Shown one piece after another: positions 39,460 to 47,703 of a stretch of 64,000 nt of DNA. Below the pieces are notes generated by a model that saw only the letters and a list, made by a program, of their open reading frames with translations, did no database searches and was not told the DNA's origin. Source of the DNA: a virus. Every line of letters starts with the position of its first letter. Position 1 is the stretch's first letter. A program made the translations under genes and the position numbers. The stretch spans positions 124,001 through 188,000 of IMG/VR virus record IMGVR_UViG_3300023184_000026; one strand, given 5' to 3'.

Positions 39460-39707
39460 TACAAATATTAGCCATATATTTTGCCACACTGGTTGTGGCT
39501 TGTGCAGTTAATTTTCAATATAGAAATGCTATAAAAGGCGACTATTTTGCCATTGGTTTAACTTCATGTTTGATTGGGTCTATAAATTTATTTATGTTGA
39601 AAACGATTCCACATGTAACACATATATCAGAAGGACTGGCTTATATACTTGGTGGAGCAACTGGAGCGGTTGGAGCCAATTATCTACACAAAAGATTTTT
39701 TAAATGA
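39456..39707 (+). CDS. Small three-TM membrane protein
   Basis: 83 aa. Hydrophobic segments at about 3-21 (ILAIYFATLVVACAVNF), 33-50 (AIGLTSCLIGSINLFML) and 60-76 (GLAYILGGATGAVGANYL). Similar small membrane proteins occur in phages, some as holin candidates, but nothing here proves that. ATGA-coupled on both sides. Confidence 0.65.
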   Translation: MIQILAIYFATLVVACAVNFQYRNAIKGDYFAIGLTSCLIGSINLFMLKTIPHVTHISEGLAYILGGATGAVGANYLHKRFFK

Positions 39708-39952
39708 AAGCACATATACCAGTTGAGCTGGGTAATCAACTACATAGTCAGATTAATAATCGGCCACTTAATCAGCTATGTGATCAGCTATATAGTCAGT
39801 TTAATATTAAGATTAATACTCAACTTAATAATCAGCTATATAATCTGTTTTATATTCAGTTGTCTGATCAACTATATAATCAGCTTGATAATCAGATATA
39901 TAGACAGCTATGTCTTCAGCTATATAATCAGCGACTTAATCAACTAAAATGA
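39704..39952 (+). CDS. NQLY-repeat protein, copy 1
   Basis: 82 aa. After MKAHIPVELG it consists of a degenerate tetrapeptide repeat, mostly NQLY/NQLx (DQLYSQFN, NQLYNLFY, DQLYNQLD). The 12-nt DNA unit is close to AATCAGCTATAT. Three more copies follow at 39949, 40170 and 41707. A hydrophobic second frame (39723-39947) is also open because of the repeat. The NQL frame is preferred since the related genes share it together with the start MKxxxxVxLG. Confidence 0.7.
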   Translation: MKAHIPVELGNQLHSQINNRPLNQLCDQLYSQFNIKINTQLNNQLYNLFYIQLSDQLYNQLDNQIYRQLCLQLYNQRLNQLK

Positions 39953-40173
39953 AATCATATAAAAAAGTAGATTTGGGTGTTGAAATACACACCAAACTAT
40001 ATAATCAGATTAATAATCATCTATATAATCATATATATAATCAGAAAGAAAGTCAGCTAGGTAGTCAGATAGATAATCAGCTAGTTAATCAGATACGTAA
40101 TCAGCTTGGCAATCAACTTAGTAATCAAATTGGTAATGAGCTACATAATCAACTTCGTAATCAACTAAAATGA
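39949..40173 (+). CDS. NQLY-repeat protein, copy 2
   Basis: 74 aa, ATGA overlap with copy 1. MKSYKKVDLGVEI followed by NQ-rich tetrads (YNQINNHLYNHIYNQ, NQLVNQIRNQLGNQLSNQ). A regular i, i+4 Leu/Ile pattern would make an amphipathic helix or ladder. Function unknown. Confidence 0.7.
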   Translation: MKSYKKVDLGVEIHTKLYNQINNHLYNHIYNQKESQLGSQIDNQLVNQIRNQLGNQLSNQIGNELHNQLRNQLK

Positions 40174-40406
40174 AAGCACATAAACAAGTAGATTTGGGTA
40201 AACCAATTTATATTCAGCTAGTTAATCAAAAAGTAAAGTTGGGTAACACAATTTATATTCAGCTAGAAGATCAGCTAGATAATCAGCTATGTCTTCAGCT
40301 ATATAATAACCTAGCTAATCAACTATATCTTCAGCTATATAATAACCTAGCTATTCAGCTAAAAATTAAAAAGATTTATCTCGACAATCGGTATAAAAAA
40401 GTATAG
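40170..40406 (+). CDS. NQLY-repeat protein, copy 3
   Basis: 78 aa, ATGA overlap with copy 2. MKAHKQVDLG then IYIQLVNQ, IYIQLEDQLDNQLCLQLYNN units, more degenerate than the others, ending in a basic tail (KIKKIYLDNRYKKV). A promoter for the next gene lies inside its 3' end. Confidence 0.65.
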   Translation: MKAHKQVDLGKPIYIQLVNQKVKLGNTIYIQLEDQLDNQLCLQLYNNLANQLYLQLYNNLAIQLKIKKIYLDNRYKKV

Positions 40407-40409
40407 TGT
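40381..40409 (+). promoter_or_regulatory. Promoter with TATAAAAAAG spacer
   Basis: TCGACA (40381), GGTATAAAAAAG in the spacer, TAGTGT (40404-40409) at 17 nt; ATG at 40434 is 24 nt on. Confidence 0.5.
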
Positions 40410-40433
40410 ATTTCTCTAACATAAAAAACTATT

Positions 40434-40766
40434 ATGAATAAAAACGAAGTAATCCTCCACGGTGAATGTATGGTGTTTGCAAGCAAACTGCCATCTAATC
40501 TAAAGAAAATGAAAAAAAAGCCATTTATTATTGTTGCTCCAAGCGAAACCACAGGCAATCATCATGTTGTTGATGTTGTTGATGGTGTTGATTTTTATGA
40601 AAATGAGTCTGGAACTCTATTCATGGAAAGTTCGGTGGATACTACTATCCGCTGCGTTATGGCTGAACGACATGATGCTATTACTATTCCGGCTGGCACT
40701 TATGAATTTGGCAGTCAAGTGGAATATGATCCTTTTACTGCTCGACTTCAAAAGGTGCGCGACTAA
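40434..40766 (+). CDS. Unknown phage protein
   Basis: 110 aa. HGECMVFASKLPSNLKK..., TGNHHVVDVVDGVDFYEN, ERHDAITIPAGTYEF form a beta-rich pattern (GxHH, RHxxxxxPxGxYxF) that I have seen in unnamed phage proteins. Function unknown. Confidence 0.65.
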   Translation: MNKNEVILHGECMVFASKLPSNLKKMKKKPFIIVAPSETTGNHHVVDVVDGVDFYENESGTLFMESSVDTTIRCVMAERHDAITIPAGTYEFGSQVEYDPFTARLQKVRD

Positions 40767-40814
40767 GTTCTTTATAGCAAAGATATAACATATAACACAT
40801 ATACAAATATCAAA

Positions 40815-41702
40815 ATGAGCAAGATTGAAAAACTCACAGCTGAACAAGAAAAAGACCTTCAAGTGTTTTATCGTGAAATGCTTGATTATGGTCGAAGCAT
40901 CAAACCTATTGATCATGAAAAGGCTGAAAATATTATCACAAGCTTTTATAAGCGAATGGGTCATGAAAAACCACAGTTCATGTATTTTTCCAGTCCCAAT
41001 GCAATTATTGAATATAAGAAAAAATGTGGCGATAATTCTGGTGTAGCTAATTATAGTCCCGGCCAGCAATGGATTTATTGGAAAGCTTTTTATACTTTTG
41101 CTGAAAAGATTGGCGTAAAATATTCAGAAGAAGACAGCAAGCTATTGGCCGAATGGATGACAGAATCCAAAGAGCTACATTGGTGGTTTCCATATGAGAA
41201 ATATGTGCTTGTATCTGAACGTCCCGTTCGTTTAACGGTCAATGAAGCTGGAATGCTTCATAATGAAAAGCACAAGGCTATTGAATATAGCGATGGCTGG
41301 GGTTTTTATTATCTCAATGGTGTTTGTGTTCCAGAAGAACTTGTTGTTACTGATTCTGAAGATCTTAGCTTGGATTTTTTTACAAATGAAAAAAATGCCG
41401 ATGTCAAGGCTGAATTTGTTCGCAAGTTTGGCGTTGAACGTATGCTTGATTTTGGCAAGAAAGTTGATAGCTATGAGAATTATGACAATGAAGAGCATCC
41501 TTATTGGCATGAATCTAGATATGAACTATGGGACATGAAAGTTCTGTTTGAAGGACTTGATTATCAGCCATATATAAAGATGCAGAATCAAACAACTGAA
41601 ATATGGCACGTTGAAGCAGTTTCACCAGCTTGTAGAACACTGAAAGATGCTATCAAAGAGCGTTTTGGTGGCAAAGATATGAAAATCTTGAACATCGCCT
41701 AA
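40815..41702 (+). CDS. DUF6745-like protein
   Basis: 295 aa. The C-terminal half contains ERPVRLTVNEAGMLHNEKHKAIEYSDGWGFYYLNGVCVPEELV, the RLHNxxxxAIEYxDGWGxYxxxGVxVPE signature of DUF6745-type proteins; a helical N-terminal domain contains KELHWWFPYEKYVLVSERP. No catalytic role is known to me. It ends 4 nt before the fourth NQLY gene. Confidence 0.75.
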   Translation: MSKIEKLTAEQEKDLQVFYREMLDYGRSIKPIDHEKAENIITSFYKRMGHEKPQFMYFSSPNAIIEYKKKCGDNSGVANYSPGQQWIYWKAFYTFAEKIGVKYSEEDSKLLAEWMTESKELHWWFPYEKYVLVSERPVRLTVNEAGMLHNEKHKAIEYSDGWGFYYLNGVCVPEELVVTDSEDLSLDFFTNEKNADVKAEFVRKFGVERMLDFGKKVDSYENYDNEEHPYWHESRYELWDMKVLFEGLDYQPYIKMQNQTTEIWHVEAVSPACRTLKDAIKERFGGKDMKILNIA

Positions 41703-41706
41703 AGCA

Positions 41707-41931
41707 GTGAATAAATATAAACAAGTTGAGCTGGGTAATCAGCTACATAGTCAGATTAATAATCAGCTATATAATCAGCTATATAATCAGCTTTGGAATC
41801 AGCTAGATAGACAGCTAAGTAATCAGCTATATAATCAGCTATATAATCAGCTTTGGAATCAGCTAGATAGACAGCTAAGTAATCAGCTATATAATCATGT
41901 TTATAACGAGAATAAGCTTGCCAAACTATAG
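41707..41931 (+). CDS. NQLY-repeat protein, copy 4 (most regular)
   Basis: 74 aa with a GTG start. MNKYKQVELGNQLHSQIN then NQLYNQLYNQLWNQLDRQLS twice. The repeat is nearly perfect at DNA level: 41761-41820 and 41821-41880 are the same 60 nt. This is the least decayed of the four family members. Confidence 0.7.
   Translation: MNKYKQVELGNQLHSQINNQLYNQLYNQLWNQLDRQLSNQLYNQLYNQLWNQLDRQLSNQLYNHVYNENKLAKL
41761..41880 (+). repeat. Perfect 60-bp tandem duplication inside NQLY gene
   Basis: Bases 41761-41820 are identical to 41821-41880. Each half is five 12-bp units (AATCAGCTATAT type). A third partial unit follows. Confidence 0.95.
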
Positions 41932-41954: not shown

Positions 41955-42629
41955 ATGAAAATTATTGGTATATCAGACTCCCACGGTTCTCATTGGGACA
42001 TAAAAGTTCCAGATGGAGATATTTTAGTTCATACTGGAGATTTTTCTTCACACGGAAGATTGCCAGACACACTTGATTTTTTGAGATGGTTCAACACACA
42101 TCCACACAAGCACAAGATTTTTATAGCGGGCAATCATGACTGGTTGATGGAACAAGATACAAACTTTTGGAGAATAATCAAAATGGAGTTTCCAGATTTG
42201 ACATATCTTCAAGATGAAGCTTGTGAAGTTGATGGACTTAAATTCTTTGGTTCTCCCCAAACCCCACGATTTTTTAATTGGGCATTTAATCGTGACAGAG
42301 GACAAGATATAAAGAGATATTGGGATAAAATTCCAACTGACACTGATGTACTTATTACACATGGTCCACCATATGGTATTTGTGATGAAGCATATCGTGT
42401 TGGCTTCAACACCACAGAACATGTTGGATGTAAAGATTTGCTTGATGCTACATTGCGTATTGCTCCCAAACTTCATTTGTTTGGACACATTCACTTTGCT
42501 GGCGGTCAAAGTTATGTTGCTCCAAAAACAACATATGCCAATGTTTCTTTACTCAACGAAGATTATCTTGTAGTGAACAAACCAATGATGTTTGATGTTG
42601 ACAACAATAAAATTGTGAGTATAGTATAA
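41955..42629 (+). CDS. Calcineurin-like metallophosphoesterase (MPPED-like)
   Basis: 224 aa. ISDSHGSH (DxH), ILVHTGDFSSHG (GDxxxxG), KIFIAGNHDWLM (GNHD), VLITHGPPYGICDEAYR (THxPP) and LHLFGHIHFAGG (GHxH) are all present. The order and THGPPxGxxD motif match the MPPED1/239AB-type phosphodiesterase group. It may hydrolyse cyclic or phosphodiester substrates; target unknown. Confidence 0.9.
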   Translation: MKIIGISDSHGSHWDIKVPDGDILVHTGDFSSHGRLPDTLDFLRWFNTHPHKHKIFIAGNHDWLMEQDTNFWRIIKMEFPDLTYLQDEACEVDGLKFFGSPQTPRFFNWAFNRDRGQDIKRYWDKIPTDTDVLITHGPPYGICDEAYRVGFNTTEHVGCKDLLDATLRIAPKLHLFGHIHFAGGQSYVAPKTTYANVSLLNEDYLVVNKPMMFDVDNNKIVSIV

Positions 42630-42635
42630 TCATAT

Positions 42636-42824
42636 ATGTTTATTATTTACGCAATATTGACACTATGGTCAGTTTTTGGTTTCATTTATTATATGGCAAT
42701 GATGGACGATGTAAAAGGATACAAATCAGTCATATTGTTGATTGTCGCTGGACCAATGCTTTGGTCTATATACACATTTACCGTTATATTTTCTATACTT
42801 CACAACTGGTTAACAAAAGATTAA
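42636..42824 (+). CDS. Small two-TM membrane protein
   Basis: 62 aa with hydrophobic stretches 2-22 (FIIYAILTLWSVFGFIYYMA) and 32-55 (SVILLIVAGPMLWSIYTFTVIFSI). Six nt before the heme oxygenase gene. Unknown function. Confidence 0.6.
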   Translation: MFIIYAILTLWSVFGFIYYMAMMDDVKGYKSVILLIVAGPMLWSIYTFTVIFSILHNWLTKD

Positions 42825-42830
42825 AATTTT

Positions 42831-43379
42831 ATGAGTACACTAAAAGAACTTACAGCATATTCACATGCCCAAGCCGAAAACACGCCTTTTATGCGATTGT
42901 TTATGGCAAAGGCTCTTACAGAAGAAGAGTACATGGAATATATTACTCAACTTTCTGTTATTTATACAGCACTTGAGTTTGCTGCCGAAAAGGTTGGCAT
43001 ATTACAAGAACTTGATGGCATTCAACGAGCATCAAAAGTGCGAGCAGATGTATATGAACTAAACAAGAAACTTGGCAAACAATCCAAGATTTATTGGGAA
43101 ACTATTATGTATTACAACGAGATTACTCGTATGACAGAACGAGATGAAATTCTTGCTCATTTTTATGTGCGATATGCTGGTGATATGTATGGTGGTCAGA
43201 TGCTCAAGCCGCTTGCTCATGGCAGCGGAACAATGTATGATTTTGACGACAAGTTGCCAGTTCTGCGTCAAAAGATGCGTGAGCTTGCTACACCAGAACT
43301 TGCTGATGATGCCAACATGGCTTTTAACAGAACAATTGATGTTCTAAACTGCTCCATCATACACGTCGGCACATTCTGA
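42831..43379 (+). CDS. ho1: Heme oxygenase
   Basis: 182 aa, a little shorter than typical bacterial/cyanobacterial enzymes (~220-240). Cleaves heme to biliverdin IXalpha, CO and Fe2+ with reduced ferredoxin. Proximal heme ligand H12 lies in the conserved SHAQAENTPFMRLFM; the following helix YITQLSVIYTALEFAAE matches the family. The distal helix FYVRYAGDMYGGQMLKPLA (112-129) carries the GDxxGGQ motif with catalytic-pocket Gly and Asp. It sits 1 nt before a bilin reductase, forming a heme-to-bilin cassette like those of cyanophages. It looks active. Confidence 0.92.
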   Translation: MSTLKELTAYSHAQAENTPFMRLFMAKALTEEEYMEYITQLSVIYTALEFAAEKVGILQELDGIQRASKVRADVYELNKKLGKQSKIYWETIMYYNEITRMTERDEILAHFYVRYAGDMYGGQMLKPLAHGSGTMYDFDDKLPVLRQKMRELATPELADDANMAFNRTIDVLNCSIIHVGTF

Positions 43380-43380
43380 T

Positions 43381-44058
43381 ATGAGTGTTATATTCGACGA
43401 AATGAAAGTGTTGTCTAGTGATTTATATCTAAAAATCGCGAAGGACAATAATGAAATAGAAAGTGATATGCTGACTGCATATAACTGGACCAATCGTATA
43501 TTTCGTGGAGCAAAATTTCGTCGTGGTCATATTGAAATATTGAATGTTGTCGAAGACAAAAAGATGTGGATTATGCATATATGTATATTTCCACATCTTG
43601 ATGACACTTCACCAATATTTGGCTTTGATGTAATTTGTGGTGCCAATAAGATCACAGGAATATTTCTTGATTTTAGTATGGCAACAAACAATCATCCCAT
43701 GAACGTATGGTTTAAAAATAGAACCAAAGATGTTGTATGGAAAAAAGATCGTGAGTTGCCAGATTGGGGCAAGCGTATATTCAGTGAAAATATGATTGCT
43801 GCTGGTGGAGTAAACACCGAATCTGAACTAAATCAAATCATTGAAGTAGCCAAAGATTGCTTGGATTATTATGTAAATAATGTGGGCAGAACCATTGTTG
43901 ATTTTAGCGTGGCAGAACGACACAACAAATATTGTATAAATCAAAAAGAAAATGTTCATACAAAACGGTTTTTGATAAACTGCGGATATAAAGAAGATGA
44001 TGTCAAAAATTTTATTGACAAACACCTGTTTCCTGAAGTAAAATACAACAATATATGA
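43381..44058 (+). CDS. Ferredoxin-dependent bilin reductase (PcyA/PcyX/PebS family)
   Basis: 225 aa, the family's normal size. Reduces biliverdin to a phycobilin using reduced ferredoxin. Aligning by eye to PcyA, all four key active-site residues are kept: GHIEIL (H50, E52, PcyA H74/E76), MHICIFPHL (H66, PcyA H88) and FGFDVICG (D83, PcyA D105). ANKITGIFLDFSMA and the C-terminal RHNKYCINQKENVHTKRFLINCG correspond to conserved PcyA parts. The Glu at position 52 favours a PcyA- or PcyX-like enzyme; the product (PCB, PEB or other) cannot be read from sequence. It follows heme oxygenase by 1 nt. Confidence 0.92.
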   Translation: MSVIFDEMKVLSSDLYLKIAKDNNEIESDMLTAYNWTNRIFRGAKFRRGHIEILNVVEDKKMWIMHICIFPHLDDTSPIFGFDVICGANKITGIFLDFSMATNNHPMNVWFKNRTKDVVWKKDRELPDWGKRIFSENMIAAGGVNTESELNQIIEVAKDCLDYYVNNVGRTIVDFSVAERHNKYCINQKENVHTKRFLINCGYKEDDVKNFIDKHLFPEVKYNNI

Positions 44059-44080: not shown

Positions 44081-44950
44081 TTACAATAAATGCGGACGTA
44101 TAGAGTTCCACTTATCTTTTTTACGTTTCATGTACAATGAAGTATTTCCGCCATATAACAAATCTCCAACTCTCAATAGAGAATCAATTTTCATGACAGC
44201 CAATATGTAAATAGTGTTTCTTTTATATATGTGAACACTTTTCACGCCATTCTCTTCGAGAAATCGTTTAAGAAAATTTCCCAACTTTTCTGACACTACA
44301 ACACTAAAGTTGCAACTGGCAATATTGCCAGTTTTAGAAAAAGTACAAGTTATGCAACCATCTCCTTCATATAACCCCAACAGAAAATATCTCACAAGGT
44401 CTGTTGGGACTGGCGGCATTCCAAAATTAAAATAAGTTTTTCCACAACATACGCCAAGATTTTTTAAATCATCATAGATTTTTGCACGTGATATGTCCAA
44501 TATATAAGTTCCACCAGCACGATAAGTTTTTCCGTTTAGTGGAGAAACCATGTCGTGTTCTTTAACGTATCCCAACGGACGAGTGGTTTTTAGTATTTTA
44601 TTTATATCTTGTAAATACGCCACATCATCTTCTTTCAATCTTAAACTCATGTTTTTATTATCTTTACTCATAGTGCCATCCGCAAATATCATCCCAAGAA
44701 TTTGAGCTTTCTCGGGAGTATCTATTTTTTCAAAAAAAGATTCGTCTATGTCATACTTGCTAACAAAACAATTTTTCCTCGTTAGTTTTAACCCCAACCG
44801 TTTCAGTATTTTACTAACAGTTGACGGTGCTATATTGAACCGCGTGGACAAAATATTGTTAGTTGTTTCGGGATTGTTCTTGACAAACTCCGCAATATTA
44901 GTATATACTTCGGGCTGAATTGAATTGGGTCTAAATTTAATATTATTCAT
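44081..44950 (-). CDS. LAGLIDADG homing endonuclease
   Basis: 289 aa from the ATG ending at 44950; a longer open frame upstream is rejected because it covers the + gene at 45011. N-terminal helix-turn-helix (NNILSTRFNIAPSTVSKILKRLGL). Two LAGLIDADG-type motifs: AQILGMIFADGTMSKDN and VRYFLLGLYEGDGCIT. It lies on the - strand next to the bilin genes, like other mobile endonucleases here. Confidence 0.88.
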   Translation of the reverse strand: MNNIKFRPNSIQPEVYTNIAEFVKNNPETTNNILSTRFNIAPSTVSKILKRLGLKLTRKNCFVSKYDIDESFFEKIDTPEKAQILGMIFADGTMSKDNKNMSLRLKEDDVAYLQDINKILKTTRPLGYVKEHDMVSPLNGKTYRAGGTYILDISRAKIYDDLKNLGVCCGKTYFNFGMPPVPTDLVRYFLLGLYEGDGCITCTFSKTGNIASCNFSVVVSEKLGNFLKRFLEENGVKSVHIYKRNTIYILAVMKIDSLLRVGDLLYGGNTSLYMKRKKDKWNSIRPHLL

Positions 44951-45010
44951 GCATATACATATAACAAAATATGGATTTCCACGAATATTATACTTTTTAT
45001 AACAAAATAT

Positions 45011-45622
45011 ATGAATAAAACACTTGACGATCAGATTTGTAATAAGTACCCGAAGATGTTTCGGGACCGTAATAAACCCATGAATGAAACTGCCATGTGT
45101 TGGGGATTCCAGTGCAGCGACGGGTGGTTTAATATTATAGATTCTCTCTGCACGGCACTGACGTATACCTACACAACCTCGGTTAAGGTTGATGCAGAAG
45201 ACGGTAAACGACTGGGAATAGAACCCAGTGTCTATGACAAAAAAACAAACTATTATTGCGAAATAATCCAGCCTCAAGTTGTAGTTAATACCGTAAAAGA
45301 AAAATTCGGTACGCTGCGATTCTATTATCATACTGAACTGGAAGAAAAAATGTCGTACTTGAAAGGGACGGGCAAATATCCGGAACTGGATAAAATACTG
45401 GAACGTTATTACAATTATTTCGACGGCATTGTGCATATGGCTGAAACACTATCTGAACGCACCTGTGAAATTACTGGACAGAACGGTGAACTGCATGTTA
45501 GTGGAGCAAATCGGTCTGGATGGTATAAAACTCTTAATTGTGAATATGCCAAGAATGACCCATTCTGCGTTGATAGAAACTATGTTCCTGTAAGTTCATT
45601 GAATAAAAAAGAAACATCATGA
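45011..45622 (+). CDS. Unknown phage protein
   Basis: 203 aa. CNKYPKMFRDRNKPMNETAMCWGFQCSDGWFNIIDSLC and EKFGTLRFYY plus a C-terminal CEITGQNGELHV...WYKTLNCEYAK are a pattern I associate with unnamed proteins of phages and MGEs (YPKMF...CGDGWxxIIDxLC). The C-terminal finger seems to have lost some Cys. Function unknown. Confidence 0.7.
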   Translation: MNKTLDDQICNKYPKMFRDRNKPMNETAMCWGFQCSDGWFNIIDSLCTALTYTYTTSVKVDAEDGKRLGIEPSVYDKKTNYYCEIIQPQVVVNTVKEKFGTLRFYYHTELEEKMSYLKGTGKYPELDKILERYYNYFDGIVHMAETLSERTCEITGQNGELHVSGANRSGWYKTLNCEYAKNDPFCVDRNYVPVSSLNKKETS

Positions 45623-47076: not shown

Positions 47077-47703
47077 ATGAATAACAATATTGTAGAATTG
47101 CTGGGATGGTACGGAGACGATACTATAATTGCTTGCTCGGCTTGGACATCCACCAGTAGAGAGATTACAGATGAAAAACGTAATCGCATTCCATCGTTGC
47201 TAAAGATGCTGGCAGATGCTGGCCATCATACGCCATTTGAAAAATCTTCTTTACATTTTCTTATAGACACTGACATTGCAAGTCATATTCATTTGATAAA
47301 ACATCGAGTTGGTGTTTCTGTGAACGGAGAAAGTGCCAGATATAAAGAAATTAAGCAGGATAAGTATGTGGTTCCGACCGATTGGCCCGAAGATTGGCAA
47401 AATATTTTAAAATCTTATACACAACAAGGAAATGATTTATATCACAAGTGTGTAGCTGATCTTGTAAATAGAGGTATGGACAAGAAGCGTGTCAAAGAAA
47501 GCGCACGTTTTTTTAAAACATACAATAGTAAAATTTCCGCAGATGTTATGTTTAATTGGCGTTCATTTTATCATTTCTTAGAGTTGAGAAACAAACCAGA
47601 TGCTCAAAAAGAAATTCGAGAAATTGCAAGTGAAATGTTAAGATTGGTAAAGCAAATAGATGGACATCCATTCAAGCACACAATTGATGCATTTAATTTA
47701 TAA
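47077..47703 (+). CDS. thyX: Flavin-dependent thymidylate synthase
   Basis: 208 aa, normal size. Converts dUMP to dTMP with FAD, NADPH and methylene-tetrahydrofolate. The ThyX signature is seen as KHRVGVSVNGESARYKE (residues ~75-91), with Lys in the first Arg position of RHRxxSxNxxSxRY. AGHHTPFEKSSLHFLID and SARFFKTYNSKISADVMFNWRSFYHFLELR, with the nucleotide-binding helix, also fit. It works downstream of dUTPase. A frequent gene of large phages. Confidence 0.94.
   Translation: MNNNIVELLGWYGDDTIIACSAWTSTSREITDEKRNRIPSLLKMLADAGHHTPFEKSSLHFLIDTDIASHIHLIKHRVGVSVNGESARYKEIKQDKYVVPTDWPEDWQNILKSYTQQGNDLYHKCVADLVNRGMDKKRVKESARFFKTYNSKISADVMFNWRSFYHFLELRNKPDAQKEIREIASEMLRLVKQIDGHPFKHTIDAFNL

Follow-up and report, generated by a model that had tools for sequence, protein, structure and literature searches.

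The 64,000-nucleotide stretch of viral DNA analysed here (the window; bases 124001-188000 of a virus record of 297,258 bases) carries a heme oxygenase (HO) gene followed at once by the gene of a ferredoxin-dependent bilin reductase (FDBR). The favoured reading, held with moderate confidence, is that these two genes act as an auxiliary metabolic cassette in a large aquatic phage of the T4-like type, leading from heme through biliverdin to phycocyanobilin (PCB). The cassette as such is not new: it is an ordinary case of the hemO-pcyA/X type known from aquatic phages. New is the likely product, corrected here to PCB within a known cassette type, where the closest characterised viral relative, PcyX, makes phycoerythrobilin (PEB). 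Phycocyanobilin is a blue pigment and phycoerythrobilin a red one.

Gene Pair and Its Neighbourhood

The HO gene (hemO/ho1; 182 aa) occupies window positions 42831..43379 on the + strand, and the FDBR gene (225 aa) occupies positions 43381..44058 of the same strand. The list of open reading frames (ORFs) places hemO directly 5' of the reductase gene, with a single base between the HO TGA and the FDBR ATG, so that the adjacency with a gap of 1 nt given in the preliminary description was borne out. Against the nearest kin, dN of both genes is about 0.2-0.4 and dS is 1.1-2.7; dN far below dS indicates purifying selection. Since 78 of the 80 related loci from viruses also keep the HO-FDBR order, the pair is not a chance finding; it is a real phage bilin cassette and probably a functional one.

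Two further genes lie close upstream on the + strand: a calcineurin-like metallophosphoesterase (41955..42629; PF00149, 5e-11) and a 62-aa ORF (42636..42824) from the ORF list, predicted by eye to encode a membrane protein. The gaps from phosphoesterase to 62-aa ORF, HO and FDBR are 6, 6 and 1 nt, respectively. The metallophosphoesterase probably belongs to the transcription unit of the cassette. It is 68-76% identical in the related viral loci L024-L026 and present also in L027, and its conservation next to the two genes is limited to the nearest kin; in these kin (L024-L027) the FDBR is 72-74% identical to that of the window. Downstream, a ThyX thymidylate synthase (47077..47703, +; PF02511, 9e-32), which stands outside the bilin pathway, is 80-85% identical in L024-L026, where it follows the cassette at a distance of about 2-4 kb.

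Four ORFs of 74-82 aa, consisting of N-Q-L-Y-N-Q-type repeats, were seen upstream of the cassette (window 39704-41931), three of them side by side at 39704-40406 and one at 41707-41931. Just downstream of the FDBR gene, a LAGLIDADG-type homing endonuclease-like ORF is present on the - strand (44081-45436); its N-terminal part overlaps a + strand ORF (45011-45622), and its true start is probably internal.

Genes for a T4-type head and tail are found in the record, along with 36 tRNA genes that are mostly grouped in two clusters. A phage-encoded membrane sensor-cyclase was observed as a FecR-domain protein beside a CHASE2-adenylate/guanylate cyclase (L006:4246-7205; record 80246-83205), and a tyrosinase-domain protein with an apparent Tat-type signal (PF00264, 2e-33) is encoded at L007:8407-9897 (record 103407-104897). 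A phage tmRNA (RF00023, 94 bits; L007:12795-13185) has an unusually long predicted tag; the tRNA and tmRNA genes lie on L006, L007 and L012, which are stretches of this record.

Heme Oxygenase

The HO matches PF01126 with an E-value of 4e-17 (63.1 bits, cut-off 23). Its closest solved protein by sequence search of the PDB is Synechocystis HO-1 (9e-10). The AlphaFold model, which like that of the FDBR was built using phage relatives, has a pLDDT of 94.6 and gives a Foldseek match to 1we1 (2e-8, TMq 0.83). The proximal His12 and the distal helix GDMYGGQ, recognised already in the preliminary description, are indeed present, and the heme-pocket residues H12, G117, D118, G121, G122 and Q123 are identical across 17/17 phage HOs. 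The short length of the protein is typical of the phage family (about 173-197 aa in most intact ORFs). The vHemO of phage CB_2 has been demonstrated to be active (PMC11480375). Judging by family, fold and residues, the window HO presumably converts heme to biliverdin.

Bilin Reductase

Membership of the second protein in the FDBR family is indicated by PF05996 (E 3e-16, 60.1 bits, cut-off 31). PDB sequence matches were obtained with phage PcyX (5owg, 1e-43) and cyanobacterial PcyA (8e-10). The model (pLDDT 91.5) matches PcyA in Foldseek with TMq up to 0.82. The alignment equates H50, E52, H66 and D83 with H74, E76, H88 and D105 of PcyA, as had been proposed; among these four, E52 alone discriminates PcyA-type from PcyX-type enzymes. 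I64 is the counterpart of PcyA Ile86. In PcyA, Glu76, His88 and Asp105 are essential, Glu76 being the presumed first proton donor, and these residues are highly conserved together with Ile86 (PMC9800206). At the site of PcyA Tyr238, the partner hydrogen-bonding Glu76, the window protein has Phe211, and Phe replaces this Tyr in both types of phage FDBR.

The phage enzymes fall into two groups by the residue at the site of Asp55, described as a catalytic residue specific to PcyX (PMC11480375). Direct counting in pelagiphage Mosig gives the diagnostic Asp the same number, 55. All 66 PcyX-type phage proteins have Asp at this site, always with Met twelve residues on (position 64 of the window protein), and 18 other phage proteins have Glu, always with Ile or Val at position 64; that residues 52 and 64 vary together goes back to essentially one evolutionary split and serves as a signature, not as repeated independent evidence. 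Two phage FDBRs have Gln. Glu with Ile or Val is also found in 13/13 cyanobacterial and cyanophage PcyAs. The window FDBR has Glu52 and Ile64 and lacks the Asp55 of PcyX.

The phylogeny proposed in the preliminary description separated the whole phage FDBR clade from cyanobacterial PcyA with a support of 100. The window FDBR was placed, also with a support of 100, beside PcyX in the AX clade, defined as alphaproteobacterial PcyA plus phage PcyX (PNAS, PMC10151467), and did not group with the cyanobacterial PcyA lineage. After the diagnostic columns had been removed, the Glu/Gln group was still one clade (support 97/92), comprising the window FDBR with L024-L026 and L028. The root inside the phage clade shifts among trees, which do not fix the direction of the Glu/Asp change. 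Identity of the window FDBR is about 40% to PcyX and about 24% to cyanobacterial PcyA. By these sequence characters it is not a PcyX in the strict sense; it adjoins PcyX in the AX clade and bears the PcyA signature Glu52/Ile64. The Glu-type phage FDBRs would be the PcyA side of the AX clade. The earlier identification as a bilin reductase was confirmed, and the class that it had left open can now be given as AX clade with Glu52/Ile64.

Altered catalytic residues were observed in several phage-family FDBRs: Gln at the Glu52 site in L028 (5998-6666) and L033 (6001-6678), Ser at His50 in L033, and Asn at His50 in L064 (5947-6684) and L084 (6001-6690). The product or activity of these four enzymes may differ from that of their relatives.

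Proposed Pathway and Product

In the proposed pathway, HO would cleave host heme into biliverdin IXalpha, CO and iron. The FDBR would reduce the D-ring vinyl group of biliverdin and afterwards its A ring, yielding PCB, with Glu52, His66 and Asp83, plus Ile64, as the proton-donor set. Host ferredoxin would supply the electrons, given that the record yielded no Fer2 gene. The earlier proposal that the cassette converts heme to a phycobilin is supported as a presumption by the families, catalytic residues, fold and pairing of the two proteins.

PCB is the fairly probable product of the reductase. The prediction is drawn from Glu52/Ile64 as in PcyA, from the separate Glu/Gln clade and from the FDBR of phage CB_2: this enzyme has no Asp55, and it forms PCB and loads Cph1, in contrast to PcyX, which makes PEB (PMC11480375). 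Against PCB stand the overall sequence, which is much closer to PcyX, and the Phe at the Tyr238 site. The origin of the residue signature in essentially one split and the lack of a bilin acceptor gene among those found in the phage also count against this reading. Candidate recipients of PCB in the host are a phytochrome or some other bilin protein, or the phycobilisome in the case of a cyanobacterium.

The profile search of the 297-kb record, which may be incomplete, gave no match to PHY, GAF, Fer2 (2Fe-2S ferredoxin), phycobilisome or Photo_RC (psbA-type) families. The remark in the preliminary description that no other photosynthesis gene was in view therefore holds for the whole record, and the search for GAF and phytochrome genes that it had suggested found none there. 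This lack of a bilin acceptor, photosystem or photoreceptor gene agrees with the possibility, which we regard as somewhat unlikely, that the benefit lies in heme breakdown: HO would release iron (and CO) for the virocell, and the FDBR would merely remove biliverdin, relieving product inhibition of HO. The nearly constant pairing of HO and FDBR fits such a role, and iron supply has been discussed for these cassettes (PMC11480375). Under this reading the reductase could still make PCB. However, the fact that phage groups conserve two distinct product-determining residue sets suggests that it matters which bilin is made.

It is rather improbable that the window FDBR acts like PcyX, making PEB via 15,16-dihydrobiliverdin with Glu52 standing in for Asp55. 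PcyX is its best PDB relative (1e-43 vs 8e-10 for PcyA), the two share a clade with a support of 100, the hemO-FDBR arrangement is that of Mosig, and Tyr238 of PcyA is changed to Phe in both phage types. However, Asp55 and the linked Met are missing, the window protein belongs to the separate Glu clade, and Asp55 has been tied to PcyX activity, the CB_2 enzyme without it yielding PCB (PMC11480375). Formation of PCB is therefore preferred. A degenerate or repurposed pair making no bilin, as might be imagined from relatives with lost catalytic residues (L028 and L033, which have Gln in place of Glu52, L033 also having Ser in place of His50), is very improbable, given that the HO and FDBR of the window keep all catalytic residues, have dN much below dS and are modelled with high-confidence folds.

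Two residues cleanly divide the phage AX-clade reductases, Glu with Ile/Val vs Asp with Met, so that the PCB/PEB split described in the literature becomes testable by residue swap.

Host and Translation Starts

Start contexts were counted over the 273 ATG ORFs of the record, with mechanical start calls and with many bacterial groups outside the sample compared. Shine-Dalgarno (SD)-like motifs precede a fraction of 0.14 of these ORFs (0.10 after shuffling), and T stands directly before ATG in 63% of them (background 30%). The kin L024-L028 are similar (SD-like 0.14 vs 0.12 shuffled; T before ATG 56%). SD usage is evident in the remaining cassette phages (0.47-0.64 vs 0.19-0.29). Immuto, a Bacteroidota phage, lacks SD as well; it differs in having A at -3 and a lower proportion of T at -1. 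The genomes of five cyanobacteria showed a weak SD excess, with fewer A and more pyrimidines at -1. The near-shuffled SD level and the T before ATG speak against hosts that, like those of the remaining cassette phages, rely on SD sites. This start-site pattern points to a host unlike those infected by known hemO-pcyX phages, perhaps a cyanobacterium. The non-cyanobacterial host considered earlier is possible; some cyanobacteria agree with the start context roughly as closely as any group compared.

Other markers were tried. The terminase and portal proteins matched best those of Microcystis phage Mel-JY01 and Flavobacterium phage immuto, at 51-54%, which is too distant to assign a host, and the matches of the CHASE2-cyclase and the tyrosinase were distant and scattered. 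A phage rpsU, considered as a host marker, was absent. The tmRNA is of the ordinary one-piece type and uninformative on the host.

A wider scenario, which we put forward with considerable doubt, is that this record forms, together with L024-L027 and at a greater distance L028, a lineage of another host group without SD starts, perhaps freshwater cyanobacteria, in which the AX-clade PcyA-type enzyme would feed PCB to the phycobilisome or to a photoreceptor of a non-photosynthetic host, representing an independent viral PCB route. With the present data, the carriers of the cassette come to include a lineage of large phages with translation-start signals unlike those of the others.

Distribution and Comparison with Known Systems

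A scan of IMG/VR with an alignment of the window and Mosig FDBRs returned at least 477 FDBR relatives; a single-protein scan gave no match. The best 80 were analysed. An HO ORF lies directly upstream of the FDBR (overlapping or within 93 nt) in 78 of them; of the remaining two, one has HO 1.5 kb off, and in the other none was found in the stretch examined. The question of why phages of possibly non-photosynthetic hosts have a heme-to-bilin pathway now has a broad comparative set. Many Asp-type loci (L040, L044-L046, L055, L060, L072, L077, L083, L093 and similar) were seen by eye to adjoin dnaK- and clpS-like genes upstream and CsgG/curli-like genes downstream.

Five bacterial genome-contig matches were considered as a sign of mis-binned bacterial origin. 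The contigs of the Pirellulales, Halobacteroidaceae, Neomarinimicrobiota and Rickettsiales MAGs are all Asp-type and group with marine phage PcyX; these four are more likely phage than bacterial and are of no help on the origin of the window cassette. FDBR matches were found in 3/385 genomes of an alphaproteobacterial sample, the query genome itself being one of the three.

The cassette has been published in pelagiphages, in marine contigs and in a phage predicted to infect methanotrophs (PMC11480375). With this and the hundreds of IMG/VR matches, the phage bilin cassette of the preliminary description stands as a known type and is not unusual. The nearest parallel is provided by the hemO-pcyA/X(-valaS) phages, including that of CB_2 PcyA (PMC11480375), which likewise combine hemO with an AX-clade FDBR in a large aquatic phage. 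CB_2 PcyA, likened here by its published description, also lacks Asp55 and adjoins PcyX in the tree. The three-gene hemO-pcyA/X-valaS cassettes include an AlaS-type gene, whereas no PF00155 (Aminotran_1_2, AlaS superfamily) match was obtained in the 297-kb record, which may be incomplete.

PcyX of marine phages (5owg, EBK42635) and of pelagiphage Mosig shares about 40% identity with the window FDBR and has the gene order of the window. In Mosig, HO (188 aa, similarly short) and FDBR overlap. PcyX differs from the window FDBR by Asp55/Met in place of Glu52/Ile64 and by its clade. Cyanobacterial and cyanophage PcyA has the catalytic set H/E/I/H/D in common with the window FDBR, from which it is set apart by about 24% identity and a branch with a support of 100. 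Cyanophage PebS is, as in the window, a single phage enzyme of FDBR fold; the PebS-like protein of P-RSM6 shares about 18% identity and has Asn and Asp at the sites of His66 and Glu52, respectively, and PebS of P-SSM2 is only a distant Foldseek match to the window FDBR.
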